DNA of 49,212 nt from Campylobacteraceae bacterium (GTDB taxonomy: Bacteria; Campylobacterota; Campylobacteria; Campylobacterales; Campylobacteraceae), in NCBI GenBank assembly GCA_031274495.1, contig JAISQB010000047.1:1-49212 (forward strand), read 5' to 3'. Under the pieces are notes generated by a model. That model was not told the origin of the DNA and searched no databases. It worked only from the letters and a program-made list of their open reading frames with translations. Positions 6,506 to 49,000 of the stretch are shown here, in pieces. Each line of letters opens with the position of its first letter. Position 1 is the stretch's first letter. A program made the translations under genes and the position numbers.

Positions 6506-6610
6506 TTTCTATCCTTTTAAAATGAATTTTTTTGCATTACAAATTGCGCCGTTTTTGGGCTGCAACAACTATGTTTTTCCCCGAGTCCGTCTCCTTACAA
6601 ATAAAATCAG

Positions 6611-19128: not shown

Positions 19129-19790
19129 TTACTTTAAAGGATGTGACGGTCTGCTTTGATGAGATGAGGGTGCTTGATGTGCGCTCGTTGCAGATAGGGG
19201 ATGGTGTGAAATTAGCCGTTACGGGCAGTTCGGGCAGCGGCAAGACGACACTTATCAGCGTTTTGTGCGGCTTGGAGAGGATAAGCAGCGGCAGTGTGAT
19301 GTGGGACGGTATAGGGCTGCAAGATTTGAGCGAGATACAAAAAGATAGATTTAGAGGTGAAAATGTGGGGTTTGTTATGCAGGATTTTCACCTCTACGCG
19401 GGGTTGTCGGCGCTGCAAAATGTCCTGTTGCCGATAAAATTTCGCTATTTAAAAGTGCCTGAGAAGTTAACCAATAGGGCGTTATATCTACTGGACAGGC
19501 TTGGCATAAAGCGCTGGTCGCAAAGTGTGGATACGCTATCACGCGGCGAAAAACAGCGCGTTGCCATCGCCAGAGCTTTGATAAATTCCCCAAAAGTGAT
19601 AATAGCCGACGAGCCCACCGCAAGCCTTGATATGCAAAACGGTATGCGAGCCGCGAGTCTGCTGATATCTTTAGCCGATGAGTTCAAAGCATCACTCATC
19701 TGCGCCACCCACGAGCCGTTTTTAATCGAAAAGTTGACCTATCGGTTAGACCTTGAAAAGGGCAAAAGTGTGGAAGGCTCCTTCGTATGA
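19125..19790 (+). CDS. ABC transporter ATPase, LolD/MacB type
   Basis: The 221-residue cytoplasmic ATPase has Walker A GSSGSGKTTL, Q-loop VMQDFHLYAGLSALQN, signature LSRGEKQRVAIARAL, Walker B VIIADEPTASLD and switch His in CATHEP. The sequence is closest to the LolD/MacB/FtsE class that partners FtsX-type permeases, not to classic importers. It overlaps the genes on both sides by 4 bp (ATGA), which strongly suggests that the three proteins are made in fixed proportion. Confidence 0.9.
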   Translation: MITLKDVTVCFDEMRVLDVRSLQIGDGVKLAVTGSSGSGKTTLISVLCGLERISSGSVMWDGIGLQDLSEIQKDRFRGENVGFVMQDFHLYAGLSALQNVLLPIKFRYLKVPEKLTNRALYLLDRLGIKRWSQSVDTLSRGEKQRVAIARALINSPKVIIADEPTASLDMQNGMRAASLLISLADEFKASLICATHEPFLIEKLTYRLDLEKGKSVEGSFV

Positions 19791-21202
19791 TGGGGGTCAT
19801 TTGGAGTGATTTTAAGCGGATGTGGGCGGGTAGCTTGATGATGGTTTTGCTAATCGCCTCTATCATAAGTTTTGGGCTGTTTATCACTCTGGAAGAGCGC
19901 GCTTTGCGTGAGGGGAGTGCGCGGGCGGCGGATAGATTTGACCTGCTTATCGGCGCGGCGGGCAGCGAAACGCAGCTTGTGCTATCTTTGGTCTACCTGC
20001 AAAAATCGCCGCTTCCTCTTTTAGATGGCAAATATTACGACGAGATACAAAACAGCGAGCTGGTCTCTTGGGCGGCGCCTGTGGCTTTTGGGGACTACTA
20101 CCGCGATATGAGCGTTATCGGTACTACGGAGATTTTGATAACTGATAACGACCGCTTGAAACTTACAAAGGGGAGATTGTTCAAAGAGCCTTACGAAGCC
20201 GTCGCGGGGGCGAATAGCGGGCTGAATGTGGGGGATAAATTCACACCTCTGCACGGCGACACCCACTCGCACGATGAGGTACGCTACGAAGTCGTAGGTA
20301 TCGCGCCGCTTTATGATGACGCGTGGGATAGGGCGATTTTTGTCCCGATAGAGAGCGTTTGGCGGATACACGGCTTGACGCACGACGAACACGGTGCGCA
20401 CGGTGATGATGAACACGAAGAACACGCGGACGAAGATAATGGGCACAGCGTGCACGACGAACACGAACACGCCGCTCACGCCGCGGACAAATATTACAAA
20501 CATACAGACGACGAACACGAAGCGCACGAAGATGATGAGCGCAGTGCACATAATGAACACGAAGAGCGCAAGGTACACGCAGACGATGAACACGACGAAC
20601 ACGCTACGCACGATAATCACGAACACACAGACGACGAACACGCGGCACACGAAGATGAAGCCACGCCGCCCATCTCCGCTATCATCGTCAAGCCAAAAAG
20701 TATCTCCGCCGCTTATAAATTGCGCGAAATGTACAGAAAAGATTTGACGCAAGCGCTATTTCCCGCTGAGGTTTTAAGCAGGCTCTACGCGATATTAGGC
20801 GATGTGGAGAAGATACTATCCGACATAGCTTTTGGCGCGAAGATATTGGGCTCTATCGTCATTGTCATCATTTCTACTATATATTCAAAGCTGCGCCAAC
20901 GGCAAATCGCGGTTTTGAGGGCTTTTGGCGCGAGCGTCCACCGTATATTTTTTGCGATGTGGTTTGGATTTATGATACTGGTATCTTTTGGTTTTGCGTT
21001 TGGTATCGGCTTTGGCTTTTACGCGGCGAAGCTGGCGGCGGAAAAGATATCTTTGGAGCAGGGATTTGGGCTTTTGGTGCGGCTGGAGTGGGGCGATTTT
21101 GGCGCGATGGGGCTGTTTTTACTATTTTTGTCTGTGGTTTTGCTGATACCGTGCGCTTTTAGCTATAAAAGTCCGGCTCTCAAGTGCCTTAGAGAGTCCT
21201 GA
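19787..21202 (+). CDS. FtsX/MacB-type ABC permease with histidine-rich insert
   Basis: This 471-residue membrane protein has one N-terminal helix (SLMMVLLIASIISFGLFITL), a periplasmic core domain and three C-terminal helices, the FtsX layout. Residues about 199-292 (bases 20381-20664) are an insertion rich in His, Asp, Glu and Ala with about 23 histidines in short DDEHxAH-like units. This is unlike ordinary FtsX permeases and like the metal-capturing loops of zinc transporters. With the ATPase and DUF3299-like protein it probably forms a zinc (or nickel/copper) handling system. Direction of transport is not shown; Zrg-type systems import zinc. Confidence 0.85.
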   Translation: MMGVIWSDFKRMWAGSLMMVLLIASIISFGLFITLEERALREGSARAADRFDLLIGAAGSETQLVLSLVYLQKSPLPLLDGKYYDEIQNSELVSWAAPVAFGDYYRDMSVIGTTEILITDNDRLKLTKGRLFKEPYEAVAGANSGLNVGDKFTPLHGDTHSHDEVRYEVVGIAPLYDDAWDRAIFVPIESVWRIHGLTHDEHGAHGDDEHEEHADEDNGHSVHDEHEHAAHAADKYYKHTDDEHEAHEDDERSAHNEHEERKVHADDEHDEHATHDNHEHTDDEHAAHEDEATPPISAIIVKPKSISAAYKLREMYRKDLTQALFPAEVLSRLYAILGDVEKILSDIAFGAKILGSIVIVIISTIYSKLRQRQIAVLRAFGASVHRIFFAMWFGFMILVSFGFAFGIGFGFYAAKLAAEKISLEQGFGLLVRLEWGDFGAMGLFLLFLSVVLLIPCAFSYKSPALKCLRES

Positions 21203-26199: not shown

Positions 26200-26488
26200 A
26201 AATCCTCTCCGTTTTTTTCGATATTACCAATATTTTGCCCCCTTGTCAAGCTTTTTTGTTTTGAACGAAGCAATGAGAAACCTTAAAGCTATAATAGCAG
26301 TTATAAAAATTCAAAAATATACCAACTATCTTAATTGAAAAACAACGATAAAACGCTATTAATAAATCATATAATTACAATAATTAATAAAAAAATTTAC
26401 CGCAGAGCATATATTTTTATTTGATTTGTGATAAAATAGCTAAATTTATTTTTCAATAAATATTTCAATAATATTATGGAGGTTGAGT

Positions 26489-28300
26489 ATGTTTGGTTTT
26501 TTAACAAATGGTTCGATAGTAAATCTATTCGGAAAGTCATTTGGTAAGTTCGTTTCGATTCTTTTTGCTTCACTGCTAATCGCAGGCTGCGGAGGCAGTG
26601 GTGACGACGACTACGACGATGATGATAATGTGCGCACCACTCCCATCTATACGGTTTCGTTTTATGATGAGAATCTTACATTGTTGGGAACGAAGAGTGC
26701 TAATTCCAGTACTAATGTAGTGAGTCTATCCGAATACGGCAGGAGTGTTTGGTATGCAAGCGGAGGGGCAGCAAACAAGAGTGGAAATTTTGCGCTAAAC
26801 GGCAACACTAATCTTTATGCAGTTCCTGACGTCACGGAGATAATTGACCAAGAGGGATTAAACAATGTCCGAAATAATCTTGCCGGTAAATATATACTGT
26901 TCAACGATATAGCATTGGAGAGTAACGGCACAGGATGGAATCCTATAGGCGAATACGAATCCCCTTTTAGCGGCGTATTTAACGGTAACGGTTATAGAAT
27001 AAGCGGTCTTTGGATAAATAGACCATCAACGGATTATGTTGGACTGTTTGGCTATGTAGATAGAGGCACGCTCAAAAATCTTAGCGTTTTTATAGATGAG
27101 AACAGAGGAGTTAAAGGCGAAAGCCAAGTCGGCGGTATCGCGGGATATATTACCGGCAACTCAATAATAACCGACAGTTACTCCGCAGGAAATGTAAACG
27201 GATACAGCAATGTCGGCGGTATAGTGGGAAGTGCTTATGAGAGCTTAATAGCCAATAGTTACTCCACAGGAAATGTTAACGGAAACGGCGGCAGTCAAAT
27301 CGGCGGTATCGCAGGACAGATTTATTACTACTCGAAGATAGCTGACAGTTATACTACAGGAAATGTCAACGGAAACAATGATGTCGGCGGTATCGCGGGA
27401 TTAGTTGAATCCACGTCGACAGTAACCGACAGTTACTCCACAGGAAATGTCAGTGGAAACGATTATGTTGGCGGCATTGTTGGGCGTTTAGAATATGGTA
27501 TTCGTCCTATCCCCATCGGAGGTAGTCAGGTTGGCAATGTCGTCGTCATAGCTCAAGGTTTAATCATCAATAGTTACTCTACCGGAAATGTCGACGGACA
27601 CGGCTATGTCGGCGGTATAGCGGGATATGTTAGTGGTGGCTCAATAACCAACAGCTACTTTACAGGAAATATTAATGGAAGCAGTGAGCAAATTGGTGGT
27701 ATAGTCGGATATGTTGAGTACAACTCAATAATAACCGGCAGTTATTCTACCGGAAATGTCAATGGACACGGCAATGTCGGCGGTATCGCGGGATATGTTA
27801 GTGACAGCTCAATAAACAGCAGCTACTTCACAGGAAATATTAATGTAAGCGGTGACCGAATCGGTGGTATAGCCGGATATGTTGACAACTCAATAATAAC
27901 CGGCAGTTACTCTGCGGGCGTTATCAGTGGAGGGGTGTCGCGTGTCGGTGGTATCGCGGGACTTGTTGAGTCCGGCAGCTCAATAACCAATAATGCTGCT
28001 ATCAATCAAGAGATTAACGCATCCCTCACGCCCAATCGTGTTGTTGGTAGTAGTTTTGGTAGAATATCGAATAACTTTGCTTTAAGTACCACGAAGGTTA
28101 GAGGTGATACTAGAAGCAGCACCAATGCCAATGGATTAGACGGAGTGGATAAAACGGATGATGATTTTAAAACGCAAACGACCTATTCCAACGCTACCAA
28201 TAGAGGTGGTCTTGGCTGGTCTTTTGGTAGCAACGCCTCGGCTCCATGGAAGATAGACGAGGGTGTGGGCTATCCTTATCTTTATTGGCAAGATAATTAA
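26489..28300 (+). CDS. GLUG-repeat surface lipoprotein
   Basis: The 603-residue product starts at ATG 26489, with GGAGG 6 bases upstream (26478-26482). A lipoprotein signal ends at LIAGC (about residue 33) and is followed by an Asp-rich linker. Residues ~60-110 hold a degenerate InlB-type unit, and GLNNVRNNLAGKYILFNDIA begins the GLUG part. About ten GLUG units follow, each VGGIAG/VGGIVG ... NSYSTGNVNG. One unit carries an extra ~20-residue insert (GIRPIPIGGSQVG). The C-terminus GLGWSFGS ... PWKID ... YPYLYW is shared with the gene at 1-1617. A GATAAAAT -10-like sequence lies about 50 bases upstream. The function is unknown; GLUG repeats form exported beta-solenoid-like structures. Confidence 0.85.
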   Translation: MFGFLTNGSIVNLFGKSFGKFVSILFASLLIAGCGGSGDDDYDDDDNVRTTPIYTVSFYDENLTLLGTKSANSSTNVVSLSEYGRSVWYASGGAANKSGNFALNGNTNLYAVPDVTEIIDQEGLNNVRNNLAGKYILFNDIALESNGTGWNPIGEYESPFSGVFNGNGYRISGLWINRPSTDYVGLFGYVDRGTLKNLSVFIDENRGVKGESQVGGIAGYITGNSIITDSYSAGNVNGYSNVGGIVGSAYESLIANSYSTGNVNGNGGSQIGGIAGQIYYYSKIADSYTTGNVNGNNDVGGIAGLVESTSTVTDSYSTGNVSGNDYVGGIVGRLEYGIRPIPIGGSQVGNVVVIAQGLIINSYSTGNVDGHGYVGGIAGYVSGGSITNSYFTGNINGSSEQIGGIVGYVEYNSIITGSYSTGNVNGHGNVGGIAGYVSDSSINSSYFTGNINVSGDRIGGIAGYVDNSIITGSYSAGVISGGVSRVGGIAGLVESGSSITNNAAINQEINASLTPNRVVGSSFGRISNNFALSTTKVRGDTRSSTNANGLDGVDKTDDDFKTQTTYSNATNRGGLGWSFGSNASAPWKIDEGVGYPYLYWQDN

Positions 28301-32795: not shown

Positions 32796-34004
32796 TCAAA
32801 ACTTAATTTCTATTTCGCCATTCGGTTCTAAAGTTATTGGGTTTATCTGCACTGTGTCGGGGTATTTTAGGCCGGTGCCGGTGTTTAATAGGACTACTTT
32901 TTCTTTTGGGTTTATCCAGCCTTGTTTTAGGAGTTTGTGGGCGGCTGTTAGGGTGGCGGCGCCTTCGGGGCAGATGAAGAGTCCCTCGTTTTGGGCTAAG
33001 AGGGATTGGTAGTGTAGGATATCTTCGTCGGCTACGGCTACGGCGGTGCCGTTTGTTTTGTAGATCGCGTCTAATACCAAGAAGTCGCCTATCGCTTTTG
33101 GGACGGTGATACCGAAGGCTATGGTGTGGGCGTTTTCCCAGAAGATGGACTCTTTGCTTTTAGACTCGTACGCTTTTACTATCGGGGCGCAGTTTTGGGC
33201 TTGGACGGCTACGAGGCGGGGGAGATTTTCTATGATGCCGATTGCTCGCAGTTCCAAAAGCGCTTTGTATATGCCGATAAGTCCCACGCCCCCACCAGTG
33301 GGGTATAAAATCACATCGGGGCTCTTCCATCCGAACTGCTCTATTATCTCAAGTCCCATCGTCTTTTTGCCCTCTATCCTGTATGGCTCTTTGAGCGTTG
33401 AAGCGTCCATTATGGCGTACTTTTGCACGGCTTTGGCGACTATTTTGCCAGCGTCGCTGATGAGTCCGTTTACGAGATAAAGTTTGGCTCCCGATACGGC
33501 GCATTCGTTTCGCGTGATAAGGGGTGCGCTTTTTGGCATCACTATATTTGCTTCGATGCCCGCTTTTGCGCCGTAGATCGCCCACGCCGCGCCTGCGTTG
33601 CCGTTGGTGGGCATAGCAAAGCTTTTAACGCCAAGCTCTTTAGCCCTTGAGATACCCACAGCCGCGCCACGCGATTTGAAACTACCGCCCGGATTTAACC
33701 CCTCATCTTTTAGGTATAGGTGTTTGAATCCCGCTAAGCTGCCAAACTTTTCAAGCTTTAAAAGCGGCGTTATCACTTCACCCAAAGAGATGATATTTTT
33801 CTCGTTTTCTATGGGTAGAAACTCTTTGTATCTCCATAGATTGTAGCTTCTGTGTTTTAGCCTCTTTTTGGAAAATTTCTCTTTTATCTTCTTCAAATCA
33901 TACCGCACTAAAAGCGGCGAAGAGCATTTTGTACAGAGTCCAGCGAGTTTGCGGTGGTCAAAAACAGCCCCGCATTTGGGGCACTCCAGATGGGTCACAT
34001 ACAT
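32796..34004 (-). CDS. thrC: Threonine-synthase-like PLP enzyme with zinc ribbon
   Basis: The 402-residue fold-type II PLP enzyme starts at ATG 34004, supported by AAAGGGG 5 bases upstream; a longer frame to 34073 would lie inside the radical SAM gene. An N-terminal zinc ribbon (Cys8, Cys11, Cys24, Cys27) precedes the PLP domain, with schiff-base Lys110 in NPGGSFKSRG, MPTNGNAGAAWAIYG, and the phosphate cup YPTGGGVGLIGI. Threonine synthase (O-phosphohomoserine to threonine) is the default call. Close relatives include cysteate synthase and other beta-replacement enzymes. It is the last gene of a six-gene operon without other threonine genes, so a specialised role is possible. Confidence 0.75.
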   Translation of the reverse strand: MYVTHLECPKCGAVFDHRKLAGLCTKCSSPLLVRYDLKKIKEKFSKKRLKHRSYNLWRYKEFLPIENEKNIISLGEVITPLLKLEKFGSLAGFKHLYLKDEGLNPGGSFKSRGAAVGISRAKELGVKSFAMPTNGNAGAAWAIYGAKAGIEANIVMPKSAPLITRNECAVSGAKLYLVNGLISDAGKIVAKAVQKYAIMDASTLKEPYRIEGKKTMGLEIIEQFGWKSPDVILYPTGGGVGLIGIYKALLELRAIGIIENLPRLVAVQAQNCAPIVKAYESKSKESIFWENAHTIAFGITVPKAIGDFLVLDAIYKTNGTAVAVADEDILHYQSLLAQNEGLFICPEGAATLTAAHKLLKQGWINPKEKVVLLNTGTGLKYPDTVQINPITLEPNGEIEIKF

Positions 34005-34014
34005 ATTTTCCCCT

Positions 34015-35253
34015 TTAAAAAGCACGCGCAAGGTCGGAGTCGGGGTGGTTGCCGCAGCGTCTGTAGTCGTCAAAATCTATCGTAAGGTTGTGTTTTCTTC
34101 GTATCTCTTGAAGGGCGTAAGATAGCCTTATGTAGTACTCCAACGAGGCGTTTTTTTGGTTGGCAAGGTAAGTGTTGGGGCGCGGGACCCAGACCATATT
34201 TACGGTGCTGACTCCGTAAGACGCCAGTTCATCCGCCTCTTTTATCACCGCCTCCAACGCCTCATCTTCGCTTTTAAATCCAAACGGCTCCGCAAGTTCC
34301 ACACCCGAGACTATGCCTGTATTGACTCTCCCCTCTCCAAAGATTTCAACGGCGTCGATGAGCCTCTTTTTCCACTCTTTATAGCCAACCCATTTGGCTT
34401 TTCCCGGGCAGACGGTGTTGAAAATCTCTTCGTTTAAGACCTCTATATCCATAGTAAGGCTCAATATCCCCGTCTCTTCGTAGATCCTCTTTAACTGCTC
34501 TTTTGTAACCGCCGAACAGATGAGCTGCGAGGGGAATTTTTTGGCTGAGAAGTTCTCACCTATCGCCTTTAATATCTCTATATAGTAGTCTATCTCCCTA
34601 TCAAAAGGCGTCGCGCCGTGAAAATCAGAACCCGAAGTGAGACATATCGCGCTAAATCTCCCACCCTCTTTCAGCGCCTCTTTTATCGTTTCGGATACAT
34701 CTTTGGGCTTGATCCTCGTCTGCATCTCTATCTCGTTTTTTTGCTGTTTGAGGTTGTTGACTATATCGCAAAATTTACAGCCCATATCCTCGCTCCAAAA
34801 GTGGCAATATCTATTCGGTATGAGATAGAGCCTTTGAGGGCGCGCGCCGACCACATTTTGCATTAACGCGCCGCTTGAAGTTCTCTTGTCGTAGTAGTCG
34901 GGCTTATCCCAGTAAAACACCTCTTCAAGCTCTCTTCCCTCATCCGTCAAGATGAGCCTGCCATCTATCAAGTCAACCACATAAGGGCTGTTTTCCAAAG
35001 GGGTGGGCGTGCTAAGAACGGATGTGCCGTCCCGCAAAACAAAAGCTTCGGGGCGTTTGGTAAGTTTGCCGTCTCTTGTGCCAAAGAGGTGCGTCCCGCC
35101 CAGCTGATGGCGCTTTTCATCTACGGCACTAAGAGCTTCGGGAGTATAATACACACCGCGTCTGTGGATGTCGGTTTTTAACATAACAAGCCGCGGAAAT
35201 TCCGGGTATTTTGCCGCCACCTCTTCAAAGGTCAGATTGCTTCGCGCGCCCAT
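34015..35253 (-). CDS. Radical SAM protein with CX8CX2C motif
   Basis: The 412-residue cytoplasmic protein has Cys150, Cys159 and Cys162 in RYCHFWSEDMGCKFCDIV, a candidate [4Fe-4S] site with eight residues between the first two Cys instead of three. The region after it reads as a radical SAM barrel: ICLTSGSDFHGATPFDREID (GGE-like strand), PSQLICSAVTKEQL, LSLTMDIEVLNEEIFNTVCP and NTGIVSGVELAEPFGF. The N-terminal ~140 residues are an extra domain ending in QNVVGARPQRLYLIPNRY. Its reaction is unknown. The start overlaps the stop of the PNPOx-like gene by one base (TAATG), and thrC follows after 10 bases. Confidence 0.8.
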   Translation of the reverse strand: MGARSNLTFEEVAAKYPEFPRLVMLKTDIHRRGVYYTPEALSAVDEKRHQLGGTHLFGTRDGKLTKRPEAFVLRDGTSVLSTPTPLENSPYVVDLIDGRLILTDEGRELEEVFYWDKPDYYDKRTSSGALMQNVVGARPQRLYLIPNRYCHFWSEDMGCKFCDIVNNLKQQKNEIEMQTRIKPKDVSETIKEALKEGGRFSAICLTSGSDFHGATPFDREIDYYIEILKAIGENFSAKKFPSQLICSAVTKEQLKRIYEETGILSLTMDIEVLNEEIFNTVCPGKAKWVGYKEWKKRLIDAVEIFGEGRVNTGIVSGVELAEPFGFKSEDEALEAVIKEADELASYGVSTVNMVWVPRPNTYLANQKNASLEYYIRLSYALQEIRRKHNLTIDFDDYRRCGNHPDSDLARAF

Positions 35254-35714
35254 TAAACTCTCTCCTTTTTTGCCAAACGGTCTAAATGCAGAAAATATGG
35301 TCTACCTTTCGCCTCTTCCTCAACCCTTTTTTGCAAAGTCTGCTCCCTTATCACAAGCGGCTTTAGTATCCAGACTGTAGATAGGTCAAAATCCCCGTAC
35401 TTTTTTTGCACCTCTTCATAGTAGCGCTGAAATACTTTACCGTTCACGATGGCGCGCACGGGCTTTACCGTTATCTTAAAGGTGCGCCCATCGTGCGATA
35501 TAAGAAAGACAGTCACCTTTTTATCGAACCAGAGGCTTTTTGTCAGATATCGATTGGTATCCGAAGACTCCAAAAATTCGGTATATATGATCTCTCCGCC
35601 CTCGCTTTTGAGGGAACTCTTGATCGCCGGATGCGGCGCCCCTTCGCTGTCTGTGCTGATAAGGATCTTCACGCTTTTGCTGTCGTTTAAAAGCTCTAAA
35701 ATTTCATTCCCCAT
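35253..35714 (-). CDS. PNPOx-like split-barrel flavoprotein
   Basis: The 153-residue protein resembles pyridoxamine-5'-phosphate-oxidase-like FMN-binding split barrels. It has an N-terminal helix, then ILISTDSEGAPHPAIKSSLK, EIIYTEFLESSDTNRYLTKS, FDKKVTVFLISHDGRTFKI and a C-terminal helix-rich tail. Members reduce or bind diverse small molecules with FMN, F420 or haem, so a PNPOx activity should not be assumed. It overlaps the permease stop by 19 bp; AAGGACGG before the ATG supports 35714. Confidence 0.7.
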   Translation of the reverse strand: MGNEILELLNDSKSVKILISTDSEGAPHPAIKSSLKSEGGEIIYTEFLESSDTNRYLTKSLWFDKKVTVFLISHDGRTFKITVKPVRAIVNGKVFQRYYEEVQKKYGDFDLSTVWILKPLVIREQTLQKRVEEEAKGRPYFLHLDRLAKKERV

Positions 35715-36571
35715 TTGATGACCGTCCTTCTTTCGATGACTTTAAATATAATGTTTTCTATCAATATGCCTATGATGATGACTGTTAAAAGTCCGCTGAA
35801 TACCAAGTCGATGTCAAGTTGATTTTTCTTTTCGTAGATAAACCAGCCAAGACCGCCGCCACCCGAGCTGACGCCAAAGACCAATTCCGCGGCGATGAGC
35901 GTCCTCCACGAAAAAGCCCAGCCTACTTTAAGACCTGTTAGTATATTTGCCAATGCCGCGGGGATGAGTATCTTGAAGACAAATTTAAGCCCCGTCAACT
36001 CATAATTTTTACCCACCATACGCAGCGTATTACTCACGCCCATAAAACCGTTGTAGATATTAAGCGCGATAGGCCAAGTGACCGCGTGCACGATGACAAA
36101 CATAATGCTGGGATACCCAAGCCCGAACCACAAAAGCGCCAAAGGCAAAAGCGCGATGGCGGGGAGAGGGTTGAACATAGATGTCAAAACTTCCAAAAAG
36201 TCCGTGCCCACACGCGTTGTTATCGCCAAAATGGTAAGCGTCGAAGCCAGCACGATGCCCAACGCGTAAGAGATAAAGAGCACCTTTAGCGATGTGGCTA
36301 TCTTTTGAAGCAGTTCGCCGCTTGCTATGGCAGTCACAAAAGCTTTCACGGTAGCGATAAATGTCGGAAACATAAGCTCATTGTCCAAATAGACGGCGTA
36401 AAATTGCCAAAGTAACGCGAGGGCGATGATGATGAGCGATTTGCGTACGAAGTTGTTATCTAAAAGCCGCTCCCAAAACGACAACTCTATCTTCACTTCG
36501 GCGACCTTAAGGGCTTCGCGCTCGTAGGTCTCTTTGACCGTGTCTATGGATGTTATCTTTTTTGCACTCAT
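35696..36571 (-). CDS. ABC permease, SsuC/TauC-type
   Basis: The 291-residue integral membrane protein has six hydrophobic segments and the binding-protein-dependent permease motif GVSNTLRMVGKNYELTGLKF (EAA-like), followed by LIPAALANILTGLKVGWAFS and WRTLIAAELVFG. This is the nitrate/sulfonate/taurine/pyrimidine importer class. The first ~40 residues form a cytoplasmic extension. The start overlaps the ATPase stop by 4 bp. Substrate cannot be read from the permease. Confidence 0.85.
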   Translation of the reverse strand: MSAKKITSIDTVKETYEREALKVAEVKIELSFWERLLDNNFVRKSLIIIALALLWQFYAVYLDNELMFPTFIATVKAFVTAIASGELLQKIATSLKVLFISYALGIVLASTLTILAITTRVGTDFLEVLTSMFNPLPAIALLPLALLWFGLGYPSIMFVIVHAVTWPIALNIYNGFMGVSNTLRMVGKNYELTGLKFVFKILIPAALANILTGLKVGWAFSWRTLIAAELVFGVSSGGGGLGWFIYEKKNQLDIDLVFSGLLTVIIIGILIENIIFKVIERRTVIKWGMKF

Positions 36572-37353
36572 ATGACATAGTCCAGTCGGTTTCTAAAAAG
36601 AGTATCCGAAATCCTCTCTTTAAGCGCGGCAAATTCAGGGTGCGACGAGGCAAGCGCGGATAGGTCTACCTCTAATTCCTCTATCACTTCACCCGGATGC
36701 GGCGAGAGCATAACTATACGCGTACCCAAAGTGATAGCCTCATCTATAGAGTGCGTCACAAAAACTAATGTAAATTGCGTCTCGTTCCAAAGCTCCAAAA
36801 GCTCCTCTTGCATCTTCTGGCGCGTCAGGGCATCAAGCGACGCGAAAGGCTCGTCCATAAGTATAACTTTTGATTTCAGCGCCAAGCACCTTGCGATGGC
36901 TACTCTTTGCTTCATACCGCCTGAGAGTTCGTGAGGGTAGGAGTCGGCAAATTTTTGCAGATTGACCTTTTTCAAGAGCGCCCTTGCTTCGCTTCGCGCA
37001 TCTTCTTTCGAGATTTTCCTCGTGGAGCGGATAGCAAAGACGATATTTTCAAGCGCGCTTTTCCACGGCAAAAGTTGGTCGAACTCCTGAAAAACAAAGC
37101 TCCTATCAAACCCGGGCTTTTTCACCTCTGAGCCGTTTAAAAGTATCGACCCACGAGAGGGCTTGATAAATCCGCCTATAGCTTTCAAGATAGTGGATTT
37201 GCCGCAGCCTGAGGGCCCCAACAGTATCAGCCGCTCACCTTTTTCCACGCTAAAACTCACATCGTGCGTCGCGGTCACTAAAAATCCGCTCGTTTTATAC
37301 TGCAAGGTAAGATTTCTTACCTCCAAAAATCCGCTCTGATTTGTGTCTGACAT
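36568..37353 (-). CDS. ABC ATPase, SsuB/TauB-type
   Basis: The 261-residue ATPase has Walker A LLGPSGCGKSTILKAIGG, Q-loop FVFQEFDQLLPWKSALENI, signature HELSGGMKQRVAIARCLAL, Walker B VILMDEPFASLDALTRQKMQ and switch His in VTHSIDEA. These features are typical of nitrate/sulfonate/taurine importers. The ATG at 37353 is used because the product then begins in the family manner (MSDTNQSGFLEVRNLTLQY); a longer frame to 37398 would overlap the binding-protein gene, and no strong ribosome binding site favours either. Confidence 0.88.
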   Translation of the reverse strand: MSDTNQSGFLEVRNLTLQYKTSGFLVTATHDVSFSVEKGERLILLGPSGCGKSTILKAIGGFIKPSRGSILLNGSEVKKPGFDRSFVFQEFDQLLPWKSALENIVFAIRSTRKISKEDARSEARALLKKVNLQKFADSYPHELSGGMKQRVAIARCLALKSKVILMDEPFASLDALTRQKMQEELLELWNETQFTLVFVTHSIDEAITLGTRIVMLSPHPGEVIEELEVDLSALASSHPEFAALKERISDTLFRNRLDYVI

Positions 37354-37364
37354 CTTTTTACTTT

Positions 37365-38348
37365 TTAGTAAATTTTGTCGAAAAACAGCTCTTTCCAACT
37401 CTTAGGCTTCGTCTTAATCGCCCCCGTGTCGAAAAGAAAATCGCTAAAAACGGTGATATTGGGAAGCGGTTTTGTCTGGTAATGAACCTCGGGCTTGTTT
37501 AATATCTGCTCTATAAGCTCCAACGGCTCTTTTGATTTTGCGGCTTTAAGATATAACTCGGCTGCCGCTTTTTTGTTGCCCGCTATCCACGCGTCCGCCT
37601 CGTTTAGCGCGTCTATGATGGCTTGCGAGAGTTTGGGGTTGTTCTTGTAAAACTCCTCCGTGGTGGAGATGACATTTGTCGTATGTTTGCCGCCGAATAC
37701 ATCGTAGGAGTTGAAAACTTCGTGGATATTGGGATTTTGTTGCTCTATCGTTAAAAACGGCTCGGGCGCCAAGTGTCCTGTTATCTCGGATTTACCGCCT
37801 GATGTTAGGGCGATAAGCGCGTCAGGGTGCTTTAGCGTGACCGTCAGGTGGTCAAATTTGTCGTAATTTTTCGCGCCAAACTCTTTTGCCGCGGCTATTT
37901 GAAGCACTAAAGATTGTATGGATACTTTCACCGCAGGTAATGCGATCTTATCTTTATCCGTCAAATCGCGCAAAGTTTTTACTTTAGGATTTGCGCTGTT
38001 CAACACCAAAGGCGCTTGGTCCAATGCCGCCAAAGCCTTTACCTTGCCTTTCGTCTTATCCCAGAGTCTTATAAAAGGAGCATTCCCGCCTGAAATAATA
38101 TCCACGCTACCCGACAAAAGCCCATCATTCGCCGTAGCGCCACCACCGAATGTCACCCACTCCACCTTCACATCACCAAGCCCCGCCGCCTTCGCGTGCT
38201 TAGCGATCAACTCCTTCTCCTCAAGAACGATCAAAGGCAGATAGGCCAACCCATACTGCTTAGAGATACGAAGCTCACTCTTCTCCGCTGATAGCGTAGT
38301 GCCGATAAACAGTGTCATCAATAGCGCAAATAGGGATACTTTTTTCAT
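37365..38348 (-). CDS. Periplasmic substrate-binding protein, SsuA/NMT1-type
   Basis: The 327-residue exported protein starts at ATG 38348, with AAAGGAGG 7 bases upstream, and has a signal peptide ending LSA (residues 1-21). The mature start LRISKQYGLAYLPLIVLEEK, the glycine phrase TFGGGATANDGLLSGSVDII and ISGGNAPFIRLWD are typical of the NMT1/TauA/SsuA family, which binds sulfonates, nitrate, pyrimidine precursors and aromatic acids. It is the first gene of the operon and the likely substrate selector. The divergent DNA upstream is repeat block B. Confidence 0.85.
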   Translation of the reverse strand: MKKVSLFALLMTLFIGTTLSAEKSELRISKQYGLAYLPLIVLEEKELIAKHAKAAGLGDVKVEWVTFGGGATANDGLLSGSVDIISGGNAPFIRLWDKTKGKVKALAALDQAPLVLNSANPKVKTLRDLTDKDKIALPAVKVSIQSLVLQIAAAKEFGAKNYDKFDHLTVTLKHPDALIALTSGGKSEITGHLAPEPFLTIEQQNPNIHEVFNSYDVFGGKHTTNVISTTEEFYKNNPKLSQAIIDALNEADAWIAGNKKAAAELYLKAAKSKEPLELIEQILNKPEVHYQTKPLPNITVFSDFLFDTGAIKTKPKSWKELFFDKIY

Positions 38349-38448
38349 AAGTAAACCTCCTTTTATAATTTGTAAGCGAAAATATACCATTTTTTTAAAT
38401 TTATGTCAAGTTTATATATCAATTTAATCAGGATTACCTCCCCCCCCC

Positions 38449-38551
38449 GTCATTCCCGCGAAGGCGGGAATCCAAATATGCAAAAAACTTTCAACATAAT
38501 TTTGCAGTTCATTTCCTTATTTCTTTTTGGATTCCCACCTGCGTGGGAGTT
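38449..38551 (+). repeat. ~100 bp MITE-like element without inserted module
   Basis: Palindromic GGATTCCC-type termini in inverted orientation (38449-38478 and about 38528-38551) flank a ~50 bp core (CAAAAAACTTTCAACATAAT ... TTATTTCTTTTT). The counterpart in block A (about 2044-2183) has the same core but carries the extra 42 bp module at 2120-2161. Confidence 0.6.
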
Positions 38552-38584
38552 GCCTCTCTTTCGTCACGCCCGTTCCATTCTCTC

Positions 38585-38768
38585 GTCATTCCCGCGCAGG
38601 CGGGAATCCAAACTAAAAAAACCAACAAGTCAAAGAAAATATCCGATTAGAAATCATCCATAAAATAAATACAGTTTTCAACAAAAAGAGACACTACGCA
38701 TATAGAGATTGCGGGTCAAGCCCGCAATGACGAAGAGAGTTTGGATTCCCGCCTTCGCGGGAATGACG
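38585..38768 (+). repeat. MITE-like ~184 bp element, copy 3
   Basis: Palindromic inverted termini (38585-38614 and 38738-38768) enclose a core almost identical to 2217-2399, including AAAATATCCGATTAGAAATC and the internal GATTGCGGGTCAAGCCCGCAA hairpin. Non-coding. Confidence 0.7.
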
Positions 38769-38870
38769 AGAAAAGAAGACAACCATTAAAGATTCCTCGT
38801 CGCCTTGCTCCAATGGAATGACGACAGCGACAGCGATAATCGCGTAATCGCGATTTTCTCTTTCCCCCAT

Positions 38871-39004
38871 TTTGACGCTGCCTCCTGTTTTAATTTATTC
38901 AAGGAAAAAGAGCGAGGACCTGTTTGAGTTGTTGCTTGCAACAACGAGTCCCGCAGCTCTCTTGAATCAATTAAAACAGGAGGGTACCACGTAGGGGCAG
39001 TGTC
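38871..39004. repeat. Large stem-loop, second copy
   Basis: Arms 38881-38904 and 38960-38983 correspond to the stem at 2499-2589 with a few mismatches. The loop is 55 bases long rather than 43 and contains a new small hairpin, GTTGTTGCTTGCAACAAC. Outer GGCAGTGTCA is retained. Confidence 0.65.
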
Positions 39005-39028
39005 AACTTTTATGGGGGTTGTTTCTTT

Positions 39029-39110
39029 CGAGGAAACATTTTGCTTCGCAAAAGCGCTTTGCTTGTTTTCAGAGAAACATTTTACTTCGCAAAAGCGCTT
39101 CGCTTGTTTT
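39029..39110 (+). repeat. Tandem pair of the 41 bp module
   Basis: Unit 1 (39029-39069) equals the single unit at 2635-2675. Unit 2 (39070-39110) begins CAGAGAAACATTTTACTTCG and ends CTTCGCTTGTTTT. The flanks are shared with block A, where only one unit is present, so unit 2 was gained here or lost there. It has the same CAGAGAAAC start as the module at 2120-2161. Confidence 0.75.
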
Positions 39111-39899
39111 GGTTACTTTCTTTTTGAGAAAAGAAGGTAACAGGAAAACAATAAAATTTTGAATGAAAAAAGTTTGATAAAACCTATTATATTCTCTTTG
39201 ATTGCTTACGTTTTGAGAGTTTGGACTCCCGCCTTCGCGGGAATGACGGAGAAGAAGAGGCGTCAATGATGAGAGAGGGCGGGTTATGATGAAAAAAGGA
39301 CGAGAATGACGGAAGAGGGTGAATTCTCGCATTATTGTGTGATATGCACGCGCTTTATGTGGGAATGATGGAAAGGGAGGGTTGTTTCTTTAAAATAAGC
39401 ATTGCACGAGAAAATCTTTGTGGTTTAGTTTAATAAAAAGGCAACAGTTAGGGTTCCTCGTCGCCGATAGGTCGGCTCTGTCGGAATTGGGGTGCTTGTT
39501 TGGGATGAGGGGGAGGGGTAAATAGACTTTTATGATTATATTAATTAATTTTTTTTATGGATGAAAATCCTCTTTTTATGCTTAAAATTTGTAGTAATAA
39601 AATAAAAAAGTAATTTTAAGATGTGACGAAAAAAGTCACAAAAGTTGGGATGGTGGGGTCTGTTGTCGTGGGGGCTTTTGAAAGGCTTAATAATGCCGTG
39701 TAATAGGCTAAGGATTATGTGTGGAGTGGCTGAAAAATAATAGTAAAGAAAGGCGAAATAATTAGAGTTAGTTTTTAAAATTATATACCTAATCTTAAAA
39801 AAAATGAATGCTTTATGTCAAAAAGTCATAATGCGTGTTTTTTCATGATGAATTATTAATGTATTTGTTATACATTTGTAAAAAAGATGGTAATATCCC

Positions 39900-40052: not shown

Positions 40053-43000
40053 ATGTTTCCTTCAAAGCTATTTTGCCTATTGACGGCAAACCGTTTCGTC
40101 AAAAAGTTTCTCTTTTTAGTTTCAGCCATTGCTCTCTTAAGCGCAAATATTTATGCATACACCTTTGATTGCAATAATTTGTATATAGCTAAAGATTATT
40201 ATACTTATACTGTCAATCCAAGTACAAGTACAACCGCCACTGCGGTGACTTCAGATAACGGTGTCTTGCCTACTTTAGCTTTAGGGTATCGTCCCAATAG
40301 CAATACGCTTAGAATGTATAGATGGAATATCGGTTATAACGATGGCGGTTCGGGCATAAGCTATTTGGATAGTGGCGGCAGTAATAACTGGGCGACTTAT
40401 ACTCACACTCCAGGCAGTTTTAACCCTATGGGCGAAAATCCTACGGGTGGCGAAGTTAATCAATTAACAGGCGAAATATATATGACCGGCAGCTGGCTTA
40501 ACGCCTATACAGGTTCGAGTGCGAGTTCACTGGGTACTTTTGGAATCGGCGTACACAATCCTGCGACACAAAGCTTGAGGCAGAGTAGAGTTTTAACGCC
40601 CGGACACAACTATTATGTTGCTTCCGATATGGCTATAGATGCTGAAGGTAACGCTTATGTGTTGGTGACGGACGGCTCTGATGATAATAACGACTGGAGT
40701 TTGATGCGCATTAACATCAAAAATCCTGACGGCAGTTTTAAAAGCACTCCATGGACGGGCGATATCGTAAGAAGCATTAGCAATATAGATAGTGATTGGG
40801 AACCCAGTGATATATGGGGAATTGCTTTTTTGGAGGGCAAGCTATACTTCGGCGGGCGCTTACACTCGGGCTATATATATAACTTGGATCCGCTGACGGG
40901 AGTAGTGAATACTAATAACCCTATTAGAACATCTACCTATGAAACATACGATATACTCGACCTTGCCTCTTGCCAAGTTGCCCCTGTCATCAGAGGTACT
41001 ATCTATAACGACGAGGACGCGGACGGTGTTATAACAGGGCAAGAAGCGGGTATAAGCGGCGTAACGGTGCAACTATACAGCAACGGCGGCACTCTGCTTG
41101 GCGAAACAAAAACCGTAAATGACGGCTCATATAGCTTTATATTGAACTCTCTTGACTCAAACTTTTATGTCCGCGTAAAACAGCCTATGATAGGCGGTGT
41201 CCATGCGGCTCAGACATGGGCTTCGGGCGGGGCGGTCAGTACTAATTTGTGGGGTGGGGGTACCAATACCGTATATAACTACTGTTTTAACGGGACGAAT
41301 GACGCTGTGGAGAGCAACTCGAGCCGTACCTGTTACGGCGCCAGAAGAAGCGGGATAGAGCCCTCCGCTAACGGTATAAGTGCGGCGAACTACTACTCAA
41401 AAGTCCACGCGCAGGTAAGTACGATAGTCTCTCACGCCGATTTTGCTTTTTCTGTGGCATCTGACAGGAGTGATTCAAATCAGCCAGAAGTTTTGCACAA
41501 TCTCGCCGTCAGAGATGCTCTTGGTAACTATAGGGCGTATCTTGGCTCTAATGTGACGAGGGACCCATCGACTATACGAGGCGCTTTGGCTAATACCGAT
41601 GTGGGAGATGACGGGCTTTCCGTGCTTGTGAACGGCAGGTATATTCCTGTGCAGCAGAGGGGCTTTGTGCGGGGGGCGCCGTATAGTTTCAAGGCGGATA
41701 TCAACGGCACGCTGAAAAATAACGCGACGCTCAGCACTTGGCTCTCCGCTGCGAATGACGCGGCGTTTATGGTGAATACGGCTATGTTCGCGGGACCGAT
41801 TTCAAATACTACGAGCGGGGCGGATAGTATATTTTTTACGGGCACCACGCCAAATGACGGCAGCGGTGTCGGTAGTATCAATAGGACTTTGAGGGCGAGA
41901 TTTACCACATCGATGGGCGTTACCGCTATAAACAGTGCGGGTGCGAGCAACGACCCGTGGGTGATGGACGGCGAAGTTGAGGATTATCGGGTGTTTTTGT
42001 TGCAAAGGCAGGTGAGGCTTGCCTTGAAGACAAAGGGGACTTCGGGCAACAGCGGTAATTTTAACTTTCAATTGACCAATGTGGCAAATACAAGCCCATC
42101 ATCTGCCAATGTCACATTTTCAACTCCCGCTCCCGATGTCATAACTGACGAGCCTATCGGTGTCACTCACGAGATAATAACCCAAGGCGCGGATGTGGTC
42201 GTCAGGATAGACAGACCCCAGACGTTGGGCATTATGCAATCCGAAACTACCTGCACGGATATCAACAATGCCAACGCCAATGTGCCTTTGAGCTTTTTAA
42301 GATATGAGAGCGGCGGGCGCTGGTATGATAATGTGACGCTTTTGGGTGCGGGTATCAAAGGGCAATCCGACATCGCCTGCCTCTTCACCTACGGCACCGC
42401 TCCTGTTATCACTATCAACGCCAATGTGACCAACAGAGCATTTGCCGATGATAACTTCAACTTAACACTATCGGATATAAACGCAAGTTCCGTTATCGCT
42501 TCCAACAGCACAACAAGCGGCACTAACGCAACATCCATATCAGCCATCTTAGCAGCCGACCATACCAATAATATCTCCATCTCAATGGTTGCGGGAAGTA
42601 CGGGGGCATTGGAGAGATACAAGATCGAAGCAATCTGTTCGGGGGCAAATCCGTCGACGGTCACCAATGGCTGGTTCACGCTAAACGCCACATTTGCGGA
42701 TAATATAACTTGCTCTGTTACGCTCACAGCTTCGACCATCAGCAGCACTAACTCGGGGATAGAGGTCATCCCGCAAGACAATGACGCGGGCAATACATCT
42801 TTAGTCTTAATCACGCTAAAAGATACAAACAATATAACCTTGCCTTCAGGCGGGGATACTGTGGAGGTATTTATAACTTCACCTGTAGTTATGCAGCTAT
42901 CAAACACAACCCACTCTATATACTCTCCGACTACAAGCAACATAACAGCTATAGATAACAATAATGGCACATACAGAGCCTATATAACTTCAAATCTAAC

Positions 43001-46000
43001 AGGCGAGGCTAACTTAACATTCAGTACAAACGGCATTATGGCTAATAGCTATGCGGTAGCTAAATTTCACCATTTAACTCCCGACTTGGATAGTTCAAGC
43101 ACGAATATCACGATCATACCTCCAAGCACGGTAAATGTCGGCAATAACGCCACAGCCTTGATAAGCGTAGCAGACAAATTCGGCAACGCCGTAACGAACG
43201 CCACGATAGCCCTAAGGGTCATAGCCGATACCACAGGCGGAACGCCGACTCTGTATAATTCAAACGCACTGAACAATAACGACGGCACATATGAGATAAA
43301 CCTCACATCAGCCAAACAGGGCAATGTGACGGTGAGCTTTAGCGTAAATAGTATAAATGTCAATCACAGTAAAAATGCTACAGCCACATTTATCGCAAGC
43401 GACGGCAACGCAAGCAGTCCATACTCCAATATAACTATCACGCCGAACGATACAATCGTAGGCAACGCCGCACTAATAACCGTCTACCTAAGCGACAACG
43501 CGGGACACAACGGTATCTCAGGTCAGGATGTGAGAGTGGTATTTATCGACGGTAAGCAAAACAACGCCACCATCTACCCTGATAATACAAATTATCAAAT
43601 GAACGACAATGCCACTCTTGGCAGCGGCTACTATACCGCGTGGATAAATTCGACGATAGCGGACAGTTATACTTTGAGTTTTAAAGTGGGACAATCGGGC
43701 AATGTGAGCATCCATAACGCCTCTATCTTGTATCGCCCTGCGGATATTGACTTAAACTCCACCTACTCATACATCACAGCTTCGCCCACAACTCCGATAG
43801 ACAATAACTCCACCATCAGAGTATATCTCTCAGACAAACACAACAATACAGTCAAAAACGCGACTGTCGGCGTGAGAGTGATAGCGGGAGATACGGGCAA
43901 CTTTAGTCCGATCGGCTCCAATGACTCTATCAGTTTTACCGCCGACGCGTTGTCTCCTAAGGGGGGATATTATCAGGTATTTTACACGACTCCGATAGCG
44001 GGAAGCGTGACATTTGGCTTTAGCGCGAACGGTATCAAAGCGGAGGATTCCAATAACGCTACTACAAATTTTACCTCTTCGGGACCAAGTATCCAGAGTA
44101 ACTACACCGTCTTTACCGCGACTCCCAAAGATAACGGCGTGGGTGACAGCGTTACGCTTAACTTATACTTAGCGGACAACAACAGCAACCCTCAGGCGGG
44201 ATATACGGTAGCGTTTTATGTAGAGAGCAGGAGATTTGATAACGGCACCACAGTAAATAACGGTGATGGCGTTTATATCTCGAATGTGATAGATAACGGC
44301 AATGGCACATATACGGCAACTGCTTCCACAAACAGATCCGCCAATGTCACATTCTACTTTGATGTGGATAGCATCGGAGATAGTTATGACGACTCTCCTT
44401 ATAAAACGGACTGGGCGAACTTTAAACACGGCAGCGTTGATCTTGGCAACCCCAACACCACTATCACCGCCACATCTTTTGTGCTGGTCGATACCAATTC
44501 GACAGTGGTGGTGACTCTTCGGGACAAAGATAACAACCCCGTAAATAACGAGAGCGTAACGGTAAAAGTGCTATCGGGTGCGAGTGGTACATTCTCGCCA
44601 CCGACCGCCACGGTGACACAAGATGGCAGCGGTAACGGAGAGTATGTGGTATATTTTGCCACTCCCGTATCGGGTAATGTGACATTTGGATTTGAGGTAG
44701 GGGGTCAGGAGAACGCGAGTAAGAATGCCACTACGATATTTATGAGCGGTGCGGCGGACAGCGCTACATCCGAACTCACATTCAACCCTCCGGGCAGTAG
44801 TCCCGTTTCCGTTGAGAGTTTCGCCACAGCTACCGCCACGATAAAAGACGGCAACGGCAACGCCCGCCCAAATACGCTTGTAGATTTCAGCGTCAATGGC
44901 GGCACTATCGACAATAGCACGCACAACGGCTCCGCTCTCACATGCCTTACGGACTATAGCGGCAAATGCTCCGTAGTGTGGACAAGTACGGTGACGGGGG
45001 TGTTTGCGATGAACGCCACCATCAACGGCGGCTCTCACATCACAAATAGCCCCGCCAATAAAACGTTCACGGCAGGCGTGGCAAATGAGACCACCTCTAT
45101 CTTTGTCTTGGAGAACGGTCCAAAAGTCGTGGGCGGATCATTTAGCATGAATACCACTTTAAAGGATAGATACGGCAACGCGATCCCAAATCAATTTGTC
45201 TACTACGCCGTAACGCCCGCCATACCAAAAGCCGGATTTGGCTCATACGGCTCCGAGCCCGATAATCTAACCGATACTACAGGCACAGCGGCTTTGAGCG
45301 CTACCACTTTTTGGAGCGATATAGCGGGGGATTATATCGTCACGGTTCGTTTCGGCGGCGAGAGTGGTCCTGAAGTGAGCGGCTCTAACCAGACGATGCG
45401 ATTTGTCCCAGCATCTGCTAACGCCTCATACTCCAACCTCACTATATCATCACCCGGACCGCAAGACTCTCAAGGTGGCTTTTATACGCTAAGGGTCTAT
45501 GCCAAGGATGCTGTGGGTAACAATCCTGTGCCAAATACCGATGTTGTTATCACCGTAAGCAACGGCACACTTCAAGCGAGAGCTGATGTAAAGAGCAGAG
45601 TTTGCACGACAAATGCTCTTGGATGGTGCGAATATGACTGGACGAGCCCTGATGAAAAAGGCAACTTTACCGTGACGGCTACGATATATGGCGAGAATGT
45701 CATAGGCTCTCCCGCTGCAAGAGAGTTTAGATCTTTGAGCGCGGACGCTTTAGAATCTACATTAGAGATATTGGAGGCTGGTCCTAAGACGGCGGACGGT
45801 ACGGATGCTTATACGATAAGAGTAACGCTCAGAGATAACGGCACGCTTCCTACGGGCGGCTCCGTCAATATAGCGGTAAGCGGCGGATTGCTGAATAGTG
45901 CTGTCACGGGCGGCTCTTACACCGTTGATGAGACCACGGGGCAATTGATACTCTACTGGACAAGCACGGATGCCAATAACTTCACGATAAATGCGACCAT

Positions 46001-49000
46001 CGGGGCAAATGAGATGATCACAGGCTCCCCGCAAACAAGAGAGTTCACGGCGGGCAGCGCAAACGCCTCCAACTCTGTTTTCACTATCACTCCAAATGCG
46101 GATGTGATCGCGGATAACTCTTCATCTTACAACTTAAGCGTAAATATAAAAGATAGTTATAACAACAAAAAGCAAGGAGCGGTAGTTACATTCAGAGTAG
46201 AAGAGGGCTACTTAAATAACGGTACAGTGTCCCCATCAACCATCACTTGTACTACTTTGGCAGACGGCAACTGCTCGGTTACTTGGTTTAGCGACAAGAT
46301 AGGCAACTTTTCAGTAAACGCCACCGTAAGCGGTGACATCATAGGCTCCAATCAATACAGAAATTTCATACAAGGCGCGGCGTCTAATGTAACATCCACC
46401 CTCGTAGTAACGCCAAATGACACAAGAACGGCGGATAATATCTCATACTTTACCGCCACCGCAAATATCAAAGACGCCCTAAGCCATAGCGTGACGGGTG
46501 AGCTTGTGACATTTAAAGTGAGCGGCGGATGGATAGCCAACACCACCCACGACGGTACAACTCTCACTTGTGTGACGGATAGCAGCGGCAGTTGTTTTAT
46601 TCTTTGGCGAAGCGAAACGCCGGGCATCTTTACCATCAGCGCCGATATATCAGCGGGAGTTATAGGCAGTGAAAGCAGAGAGTTCACCGCCACAACCGCA
46701 AAAGCGGCTAACTCTACCCTTGAGGTCACACCTGACGGACCCGTCGGCGTAGGTAGCGGCTACTACAGCGTTAAAGTGACAGCTTTGGATGATGGCGCTA
46801 TACCCGCACCGGGCGCTACCGTTACGATTGCGGTAAGCGGCGGCGAACTTAACGCCACCACATGCAACACAGACAGTAGCGGCGAGTGTCACCTCAAATG
46901 GACAAGCAATATATCGGGCAATTTCTCCATCAACGCGACCATCGGAGGGGCGGCATTAGGCGGTAGCGGCGATCCGTTAAAAGGCTCTCCTCAATATAGA
47001 CTCTTTAACGCAGGGCTCCCCACAAGCGCCAACTCATCTCTTGTCATAACTCCTGGCAATCGAATGGTCGTAGCCAATAGCGGCAACTACTACACACTCA
47101 ATATAACCGCCCGCGACATTTACGGCAACGGCGTGCCAAACCAGAGCATGAGCGCATGGATAGAGTACGGAGAGTTGGACAACGGCACGGGATTTGTCGC
47201 AGGCAACACCACATGCCTCACGGATAGCGGCGGTAACTGCTTTGTGTTTTGGAGAAGCGACAAAGTAGGCGAGTTTAATGTCAATGTGACGATATCGGGA
47301 GAATCGACCCCCATCTACTCAACGCCCGCCGATAAAAAGAGGATATTCGCATACGCAAATGTAAACGAGATCACCTCATACATCTTGGTGACAAGTTACA
47401 ACGCCACACAGCCCGACTACATACCTGTGTGCGTGGAAGATGAGGCGTCTATAGCTTCGTGCGGCAGTTACTATAGCGTGACGGCATTTGTCAAAGATGT
47501 CGCCGACAACCATATGGCGGGACACAACGCCACATTTTATCTGGTGCGCGGCGGTAAAGAGGTGAGGGACGCCTACTGGAACGATATCATCACGGCGGGG
47601 ACAAACGGAGAAGCCAGCTGTACCATAAGCGCAGACGGCTTTTGTACCGCCAATCTCACGCTCAAAGCCAACATCATGGGCGAGTATGAGATCAGAGCCT
47701 CAGTGGACGGCGTCTATATACATAACGGCTTGCCTGAGATAAGGCGTTTTGTCGCGGGAGATCCTGATCCAAGTAAATCATATATAGTATTTAACCCGAC
47801 CGCCGATAATATCGTAGCGGCTGATAACAGCTCCTACTATAATGCAACGGTAGTTTTATCGGACGGCGCAAATAACCCTGTGGGGAATAATACCGTTACG
47901 ATCAGCGTCCCGCTTGGCAACGACCTTGACAACGGCACGAGAAGCACGACCGTCACATGCCTCACAAATGAGGGCGGCAACTGCTCCGTTCTTTGGAGAA
48001 GCGCTGTTGCACATCTCCCGCAGAGCATAAATGCGCAAGCTCAAAATTTAGCCTCCAATCTCACGGGAAATAGGACATTTACGACAGGTGCATTTAACCC
48101 CAATATGTCCAACATCACGGTAAGCTCTCGCACCGCCACGACAGATGAGAGCGTCAATGTGACGGTGACGGTAAATGATAGTTTCGGCAGCCCCATCATA
48201 GCGACCCACCACGATGTCGTTATTTATACATCCTTGGCAAACTCATCATTTGCGAACGGCACGGGCAACCATACGGGAACTCTGACAAATGTGAACGGCA
48301 CCTACACCGCTGTACTAAACTCCACCAATATCGGCAACACTACTCTGACATTCAGCGTCGACGGGGTTATGAGCGCCAACACCGAGTGGGTATATTTTAC
48401 ATCAGGAAGTCTTGATATGGATCCGTCCAACAATAACTCCTACATCACAGCCCAAAGCCCCGTTGAGGTGGGAGATAACTCTTTGGCGACGGTATATCTT
48501 GGCGACAGATACGGCAACCCCATAAGCAACAAAAGCGTCACCGTCTATGTCCTCTACGACAATGTAAACGGCACGGCAGGGTTTCACGGCGGGTCAAATA
48601 GCATTATGATACCATCATCACAGAATGGAGACGGAAGCTACACCGCCAACTTAACGGCGTTTGATAAAGGTAATGTTACCGTATCGTTCATAGTTGACGG
48701 CAAAGACGGCAAAGACTATAACAAAACGGCTCCGGTGCTATTTAGGACAGGCACTCCCAACGCTACATCTTCGACTATATATGTCACCCACGAGGTAGAT
48801 AACAGTACGGACGCTTTGGCTGACGGTGTGGATTATTACACGGTAAATGTCACGGTGAGGGATACCTTTAACGCCACTGTGGAGAATGCGAATGTCATAC
48901 TCGTCGTGGATAAAGGCAACATCTCCGCCACAAACAGCTCCATGGGCAGCGCGAACACGATAAGCTGCGTTACGGACGCTAATGGAGTATGCACGACATA

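Follow-up and report, generated by a model that had tools for sequence, protein, structure and literature searches.

What does a bacterium import, and how is it used, when an SsuABC-like importer is encoded together with a flavin-fold protein and a radical enzyme? The question is raised by a six-gene operon on contig JAISQB010000047.1 of a Campylobacteraceae bacterium (GenBank assembly GCA_031274495.1), and the stretch of 49,212 nucleotides that was analysed is referred to here as the window. The operon encodes the substrate-binding protein (SBP), ATPase and permease of an ATP-binding cassette (ABC) importer, a PNPOx-like split-barrel protein, a variant radical S-adenosylmethionine (SAM) enzyme, termed rSAM, and a threonine-synthase-like (TS-like) enzyme of the pyridoxal phosphate (PLP) type. 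From the families to which the genes belong, their order and linkage, and their co-occurrence across genomes, we infer that the operon probably functions in scavenging sulfur from sulfonates, with the rSAM and PNPOx-like pair cleaving the C-S bond without oxygen and thereby complementing the monooxygenase SsuD. In an assembly of 97 contigs and 1.81 Mb, 99% complete, the window makes up contig 62. In a genome-collection scan with rSAM, the nearest named relatives of this genome are Campylobacteraceae metagenome-assembled genomes (MAGs), which presumably originate from a termite-gut survey.

In the open reading frame listing and sequence, all six genes lie on the minus strand; three of the junctions are overlaps (4, 19 and 1 bp), and the other two are short gaps (11 and 7 bp). 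This arrangement confirms an earlier reading of the sequence alone (the sequence-only reading), which had proposed six tightly packed genes behaving as one operon. The scan with rSAM as query yielded 31 loci, which belong to Campylobacterota, Spirochaetaceae, Bacillota and 'Accumulibacter' MAGs. In the neighbourhoods read, the order SBP-ATPase-permease-(PNPOx-like)-rSAM repeats in Campylobacterota, Spirochaetota, Bacillota and the 'Accumulibacter' MAGs. Such recurrence in four phyla means that the genes did not come together by chance; the linkage of transporter, PNPOx-like and rSAM genes, which the sequence-only reading had proposed to look for in other genomes, is hence not unique to one of them. 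Campylobacterota show two architectures. Type I is that of the window, mostly with the TS-like gene next, and type II reads ssuD-PNPOx-rSAM-SBP-(SBP)-permease-ATPase. Several genomes of the window's genus have a type I operon that lacks its own PNPOx-like gene, and a type II copy provides one. Even a Spirochaetota relative (L132) whose rSAM is only 35% identical retains ATPase-permease-SBP-rSAM-PNPOx. Over all loci read, rSAM and the PNPOx-like gene are the only constant catalytic genes; every further enzyme is missing from at least one locus.

The distribution of rSAM is patchy. It is present in 15 of 120 Campylobacterota relatives, has four strong matches among the 399 genomes of a Bacillota sample and one among 74 genomes of one order; a class-level scan (G277) covered four genomes only. 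In a phylogenetic tree, Spirochaetaceae and one 'Accumulibacter' contig nest within a Campylobacterota-rich clade. This placement, together with the patchiness, suggests that the system has spread by horizontal transfer. The 'Accumulibacter' contig (L057/L128) carries a Campylobacterota-like operon with an rSAM 72% identical, and may reflect either transfer or misbinning. In a plasmid collection, the best rSAM matches are only ~23-30% identical, and the three inspected (L133-L135) reside in other contexts.

Genome context strongly supports sulfonates as the substrate class. A luciferase-like gene beside the pair corresponds to SsuD, scoring 544 bits against TIGR03565 in L039 (cutoff 518) and 503-515 bits in L058 and L059. 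With scores at or close to this cutoff, ssuD immediately precedes PNPOx-rSAM in L038-L041 and lies no more than ~10 kb away in L058, L059, L124 and L125. Neighbouring SBPs in L039, L050, L099 and L101 score 178-244 bits and exceed the cutoff of the SsuA_fam model TIGR01728 (163.5 bits). The genome of the window itself has four ssuD genes, each adjoining at least one SBP that is 53-61% identical to the window SBP. The importer is thus linked to a sulfonate-cleaving enzyme both through its SBP paralogues at the four ssuD genes and through SsuD in sister operons. The contig that carries two of these ssuD genes also encodes a sulfite reductase that ends in a TusA domain, along with a siroheme-type enzyme and a PLP enzyme of the Cys/Met type. 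The sulfonate class, which the sequence-only reading had put forward as one testable idea, is therefore supported by SsuD, by SsuA-family SBPs and by the SBP paralogues at ssuD.

Two features of the ssuD contigs were observed in passing. On the genome's contig C36, the sulfite reductase (L138:16518-18806, minus strand) is a single reading frame of 762 aa in which two NIR_SIR modules are joined to the TusA sulfur-carrier domain. Tandem arrays of SBP paralogues surround ssuD at L138:187-8510 and L143:3-7425; the latter has six consecutive SBPs, the first truncated at the contig end, and L138 has additional NlpA-type lipoprotein paralogues. Thiamine or pyrimidine uptake, which the NMT1/THI5 label of the SBP might evoke, was set aside as the leading idea, because genes for SsuD and sulfur metabolism surround the system and a search of the window and of L049-L051 revealed no thiamine pyrophosphate riboswitch.

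Among the 120 Campylobacterota genomes, SsuD is found in 13 of the 15 with rSAM and in 4 of the 105 without it (Fisher p = 3e-12, a value that overstates the case, as the co-occurrences are phylogenetically non-independent and most positives belong to one genus). The PNPOx-like gene is present in 11 of the 15 rSAM-positive genomes; completeness is 55-74% in the four that lack it. The 105 rSAM-negative genomes give one weak match. None of the four genomes that have SsuD without rSAM carries it. These counts indicate that the PNPOx-like protein tracks rSAM, not SsuD.

Bacillota loci place the pair among genes of sulfur metabolism. In L050, S-box riboswitches lie at 650-746 and 20679-20774, and the locus encodes three rSAM paralogues, CysK, SAM synthetase, a CysE-like protein and two PLP enzymes of the cystathionine type. 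In L101, genes for MetY, YezD (DUF2292), CysK and SAM synthetase are immediately 5' of rSAM-PNPOx-SBP, and in L099 a B12-binding radical SAM gene and SAM synthetase lie downstream. SAM synthetase occurs within 10 kb in three of five Bacillota genomes, for which a rough estimate of the chance probability is 3e-6, with two of the carriers appearing closely related; its position beside rSAM fits a high demand for SAM. A search of L099-L105 with Rfam returned nothing but one tRNA. The sulfur locus of L101 also contains, before the permease and ATPase, a double-cubane/2-hydroxyacyl-CoA dehydratase-like reductase fused to its activase (4760-7985). A reductase gene of this kind is found at L102:16890-18876 as well, and might supply an extra low-potential reductase as in L101.

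The rSAM protein scores 203.7 bits against the NCBIfam model variant_rSAM (NF045502; cutoff 125) and has no match to Pfam Radical_SAM, carrying CX8CX2C in place of the classical CX3CX2C motif. In the alignment C150-x8-C159-x2-C162 is invariant, with the first loop two or three residues longer in some relatives, as is C282 in CPGK; a further cysteine, C400, lies in the tail DDYRRCGNHPDSDL. Importer-linked relatives, including the one that is 35% identical, keep the full RRCG(N)HxDS C-terminal tail. More distant variant_rSAM proteins were examined in two Streptomyces, an Agrobacterium and a betaproteobacterial-type genome. They retain the three cysteines and CPGK but not this full tail, and the examples read also lack an adjacent importer and PNPOx-like partner. 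The AlphaFold2 model of rSAM (pLDDT 84.6) is matched by Foldseek to the radical SAM barrel at modest TM-scores, nearest to RlmN, ThiH, BioB and LipA, with NosL and NifB also found. The MSMEG_0568 family shares with rSAM and other variant_rSAM proteins a CX8CX2C-type cluster motif and CPGK. A cyanide or nitrilase context (Nit1C, MSMEG_0568) was rejected, because rSAM matches the corresponding model weakly (70.5, cutoff 303.7) and no nitrilase was seen in the annotated neighbourhoods.

The PNPOx-like protein gives no significant Pfam or NCBIfam match. Its model (pLDDT 89.5) adopts the split-barrel fold, with Foldseek matches to the FMN-binding protein 3in6 (E = 8e-7) and to HupZ. These structural matches make a bound flavin likely, although heme or F420 could be the ligand instead.

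The following scheme would account for this gene content. The importer may bring in one or more organosulfonates, as its family and context suggest. In a plausible route, rSAM would use a 5'-deoxyadenosyl radical to abstract hydrogen adjacent to the C-SO3 carbon; C-S cleavage would then give a sulfite radical, and the split-barrel flavin could supply or remove the balancing electron, so that sulfite or an equivalent is freed independently of oxygen. The resident sulfite reductase would presumably reduce sulfite to sulfide for cysteine synthesis. The operon would thus be an anaerobic or microaerobic counterpart of the SsuD enzymes encoded in four copies by the same genome. Where several rSAM and SBP paralogues share a locus, they may differ in substrate specificity.

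The TS-like gene appears to stand outside this core. Its product matches solved threonine synthases over most of its length and scores 620.9 against PRK08197 (cutoff 303), a full-length match to that type of threonine synthase; against TIGR00260 it falls below the cutoff (161.1 versus 167.1). Its sequence reads GSFKSRG and TNGNAG at the places of GSFKDRG and STGNT in the solved threonine synthases with which it was aligned, and the genome also has a canonical thrC (G000:C42, 493 aa, 263 bits). The sequence-only reading had left it to be seen whether a second thrC exists; it does, and the TS-like gene as sole threonine synthase gene is ruled out. Moreover, L032 and L033 lack the gene, as do the operons that were read in Bacillota, Spirochaetota and 'Accumulibacter'. 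Given these absences and the canonical ThrC, it is a Campylobacterota accessory in the loci read, outside the conserved core of importer, flavin-fold protein and radical enzyme. In Campylobacterota it might contribute an optional PLP step, perhaps on an amino-acid sulfonate or in incorporation of released sulfur. With 84.8 against TIGR03844 (cutoff 324.9), the protein scores far below the cysteate synthase model, and the cysteate half of the earlier sulfonate/cysteate idea gains no support, while its sulfonate half is supported by context. Nor was support found for a pathway of radical remodelling followed by beta-replacement. The associated genes (SsuD, CysK, MetK, sulfite reductase) favor release of sulfur over synthesis of a sulfonated product.

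Several observations weigh against sulfonate C-S cleavage by the pair, in addition to the phylogenetic non-independence of the co-occurrence data. The window SBP scores 98.8 bits against SsuA_fam and is below the cutoff for membership; it might therefore bind an organosulfur compound of a different kind. L049, L054-L056 and L103 do not have a complete SsuABC-like set beside rSAM on its strand, and in L103 the references searched identify no gene of sulfur assimilation. No sequence relative of rSAM was found in the PDB, and the enzyme could serve another step, such as modification of the substrate or of a partner. An extended form of this last point holds that the pair does not desulfonate at all, but matures a cofactor, modifies a partner protein or rearranges the substrate for SsuD, a double-cubane reductase or a PLP enzyme. 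Double-cubane reductase and activase genes (L101, L102) and a B12-binding radical SAM gene (L054, L099) do accompany the pair, and the Isr system of Rhodobacter capsulatus requires a radical SAM protein, whose role there is unclear, together with a nitrogenase-like enzyme (PMC11423573). We nonetheless regard such a helper role as unlikely, if still a serious competitor, in view of the lack of any one additional enzyme common to all loci.

The same system might act on a different organosulfur substrate, such as a sulfone, sulfonamide, thioether or sulfate ester. The low SsuA score of the window SBP is compatible with this possibility, loci with several divergent SBPs and as many as three rSAM paralogues point to multiple substrates, and the Bacillota loci point to sulfur generally. 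Against it, the pair occurs in operons that also contain SsuD equivalogs and SBPs of the SsuA family, and each of the four ssuD genes in the window's genome has an SBP paralogue of the window type beside it; we judge it rather improbable. A further reading, in which the PNPOx-like protein does no more than serve SsuD as its FMN reductase and rSAM is a bystander, is disfavored and very improbable. The adjacency of ssuD and the PNPOx-like gene in L038-L041 would agree with such a role, but the PNPOx-like gene is missing from SsuD-positive genomes that lack rSAM, and some Bacillota loci have PNPOx-rSAM pairs without SsuD.

Oxygen-independent desulfonation by the pair would bear on a wider problem. 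SsuD requires O2 and FMNH2. Large amounts of organic sulfur are bound in sulfonates, few oxygen-free ways to free the sulfur of taurine or isethionate are known, and how other anaerobes assimilate sulfonate sulfur is a long-standing question. The window operon has in common with the SsuEADCB/SsuD system an SsuABC-like sulfur-scavenging importer, and some relatives encode Ssu genes and the pair in one operon; the window operon differs in having a radical SAM enzyme and a split-barrel protein and no monooxygenase. A parallel in logic is IsrBHDK of R. capsulatus, reported in 2024, in which a nitrogenase-like enzyme and a radical SAM protein assimilate isethionate without O2 together with SsuCAB (PMC11423573). 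Isr depends on nitrogenase-like HDK subunits, and none is encoded among the six genes of the operon, which sets the two apart; BciD is reportedly the protein closest to IsrB (PMC11423573). Other O2-independent routes listed are Xsc and IslAB (PMC11423573). The latter isethionate sulfite-lyase consists of a glycyl radical enzyme and its activase (PMC6453916, PMC6386719), and its radical C-S cleavage without O2 resembles the activity proposed here; none of the six genes encodes a glycyl radical enzyme.

No description of the rSAM and PNPOx-like gene pair was found in open-licence literature, and the pair likely represents a further oxygen-independent desulfonation route. More tentatively, it is quite possible that, unlike in Xsc, IslAB and IsrBHDK, a stand-alone variant rSAM with a dedicated flavin split-barrel partner directly cleaves the sulfonate C-S bond, that this system has spread horizontally among anaerobes and microaerophiles, and that in Campylobacterota it is paired with SsuD for sulfonate use with and without oxygen. 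If true, a small, transferable pair would explain anaerobic sulfonate assimilation in part of the gut microbiota, and a poorly known variant radical SAM family would gain a reaction.

Table 1. Positions of the operon genes and of a candidate promoter in the window
Feature	Coordinates	Strand	Remarks
Promoter-like site TTGACA-17-TATATT, extended -10	38381..38409	-	11/12 consensus matches; consensus match only
Periplasmic SBP, divergent SsuA relative	37365..38348	-	NMT1_2/SsuA-like
ABC ATPase, Tau/Ssu/nitrate type	36568..37353	-	ABC_tran; 11-bp gap after SBP; order conserved
ABC permease, SsuC/TauC type	35696..36571	-	BPD_transp_1; 4-bp overlap with ATPase; order conserved
PNPOx-like split-barrel protein, predicted carrier of FMN or other flavin	35253..35714	-	fold prediction; 19-bp overlap with permease
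Variant radical SAM enzyme (rSAM)	34015..35253	-	variant_rSAM model; 1-bp overlap with PNPOx-like gene
TS-like PLP enzyme, second copy, accessory gene	32796..34007	-	PALP/PRK08197; 7-bp gap; ATG at 34007

The promoter-like site of Table 1, just 5' of the SBP gene, is the strongest such match of the operon region. A palindrome, ATTCCCGC-NNNN-GCGGGAAT, is present in eight copies at 1671-2810 and 38452-39244 of the window, with none expected in shuffles. Four of the copies are just upstream of the operon, and the element is REP/dRS3-like in appearance. In two related loci, rSAM is followed by another ABC importer, whose binding protein is of the SBP_bac_3 amino-acid type (L047:13744-16660 and L058:7409-10304); in L047 the TS-like gene directly follows this importer.

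Elsewhere in the window, an open-ended reading frame of at least 3053 aa (40053-49211, plus strand) encodes many repeated Ig-like/invasin-type domains of a giant surface protein that extends beyond the window. Two proteins with GLUG-type repeats (13-1617 and 26483-28300) have sequence blocks in common and are probable surface proteins. An FtsX-like permease with a long His/Asp/Glu-rich loop (19787-21202, plus strand) is encoded 3' of an ABC ATPase and may be part of a metal-linked exporter.

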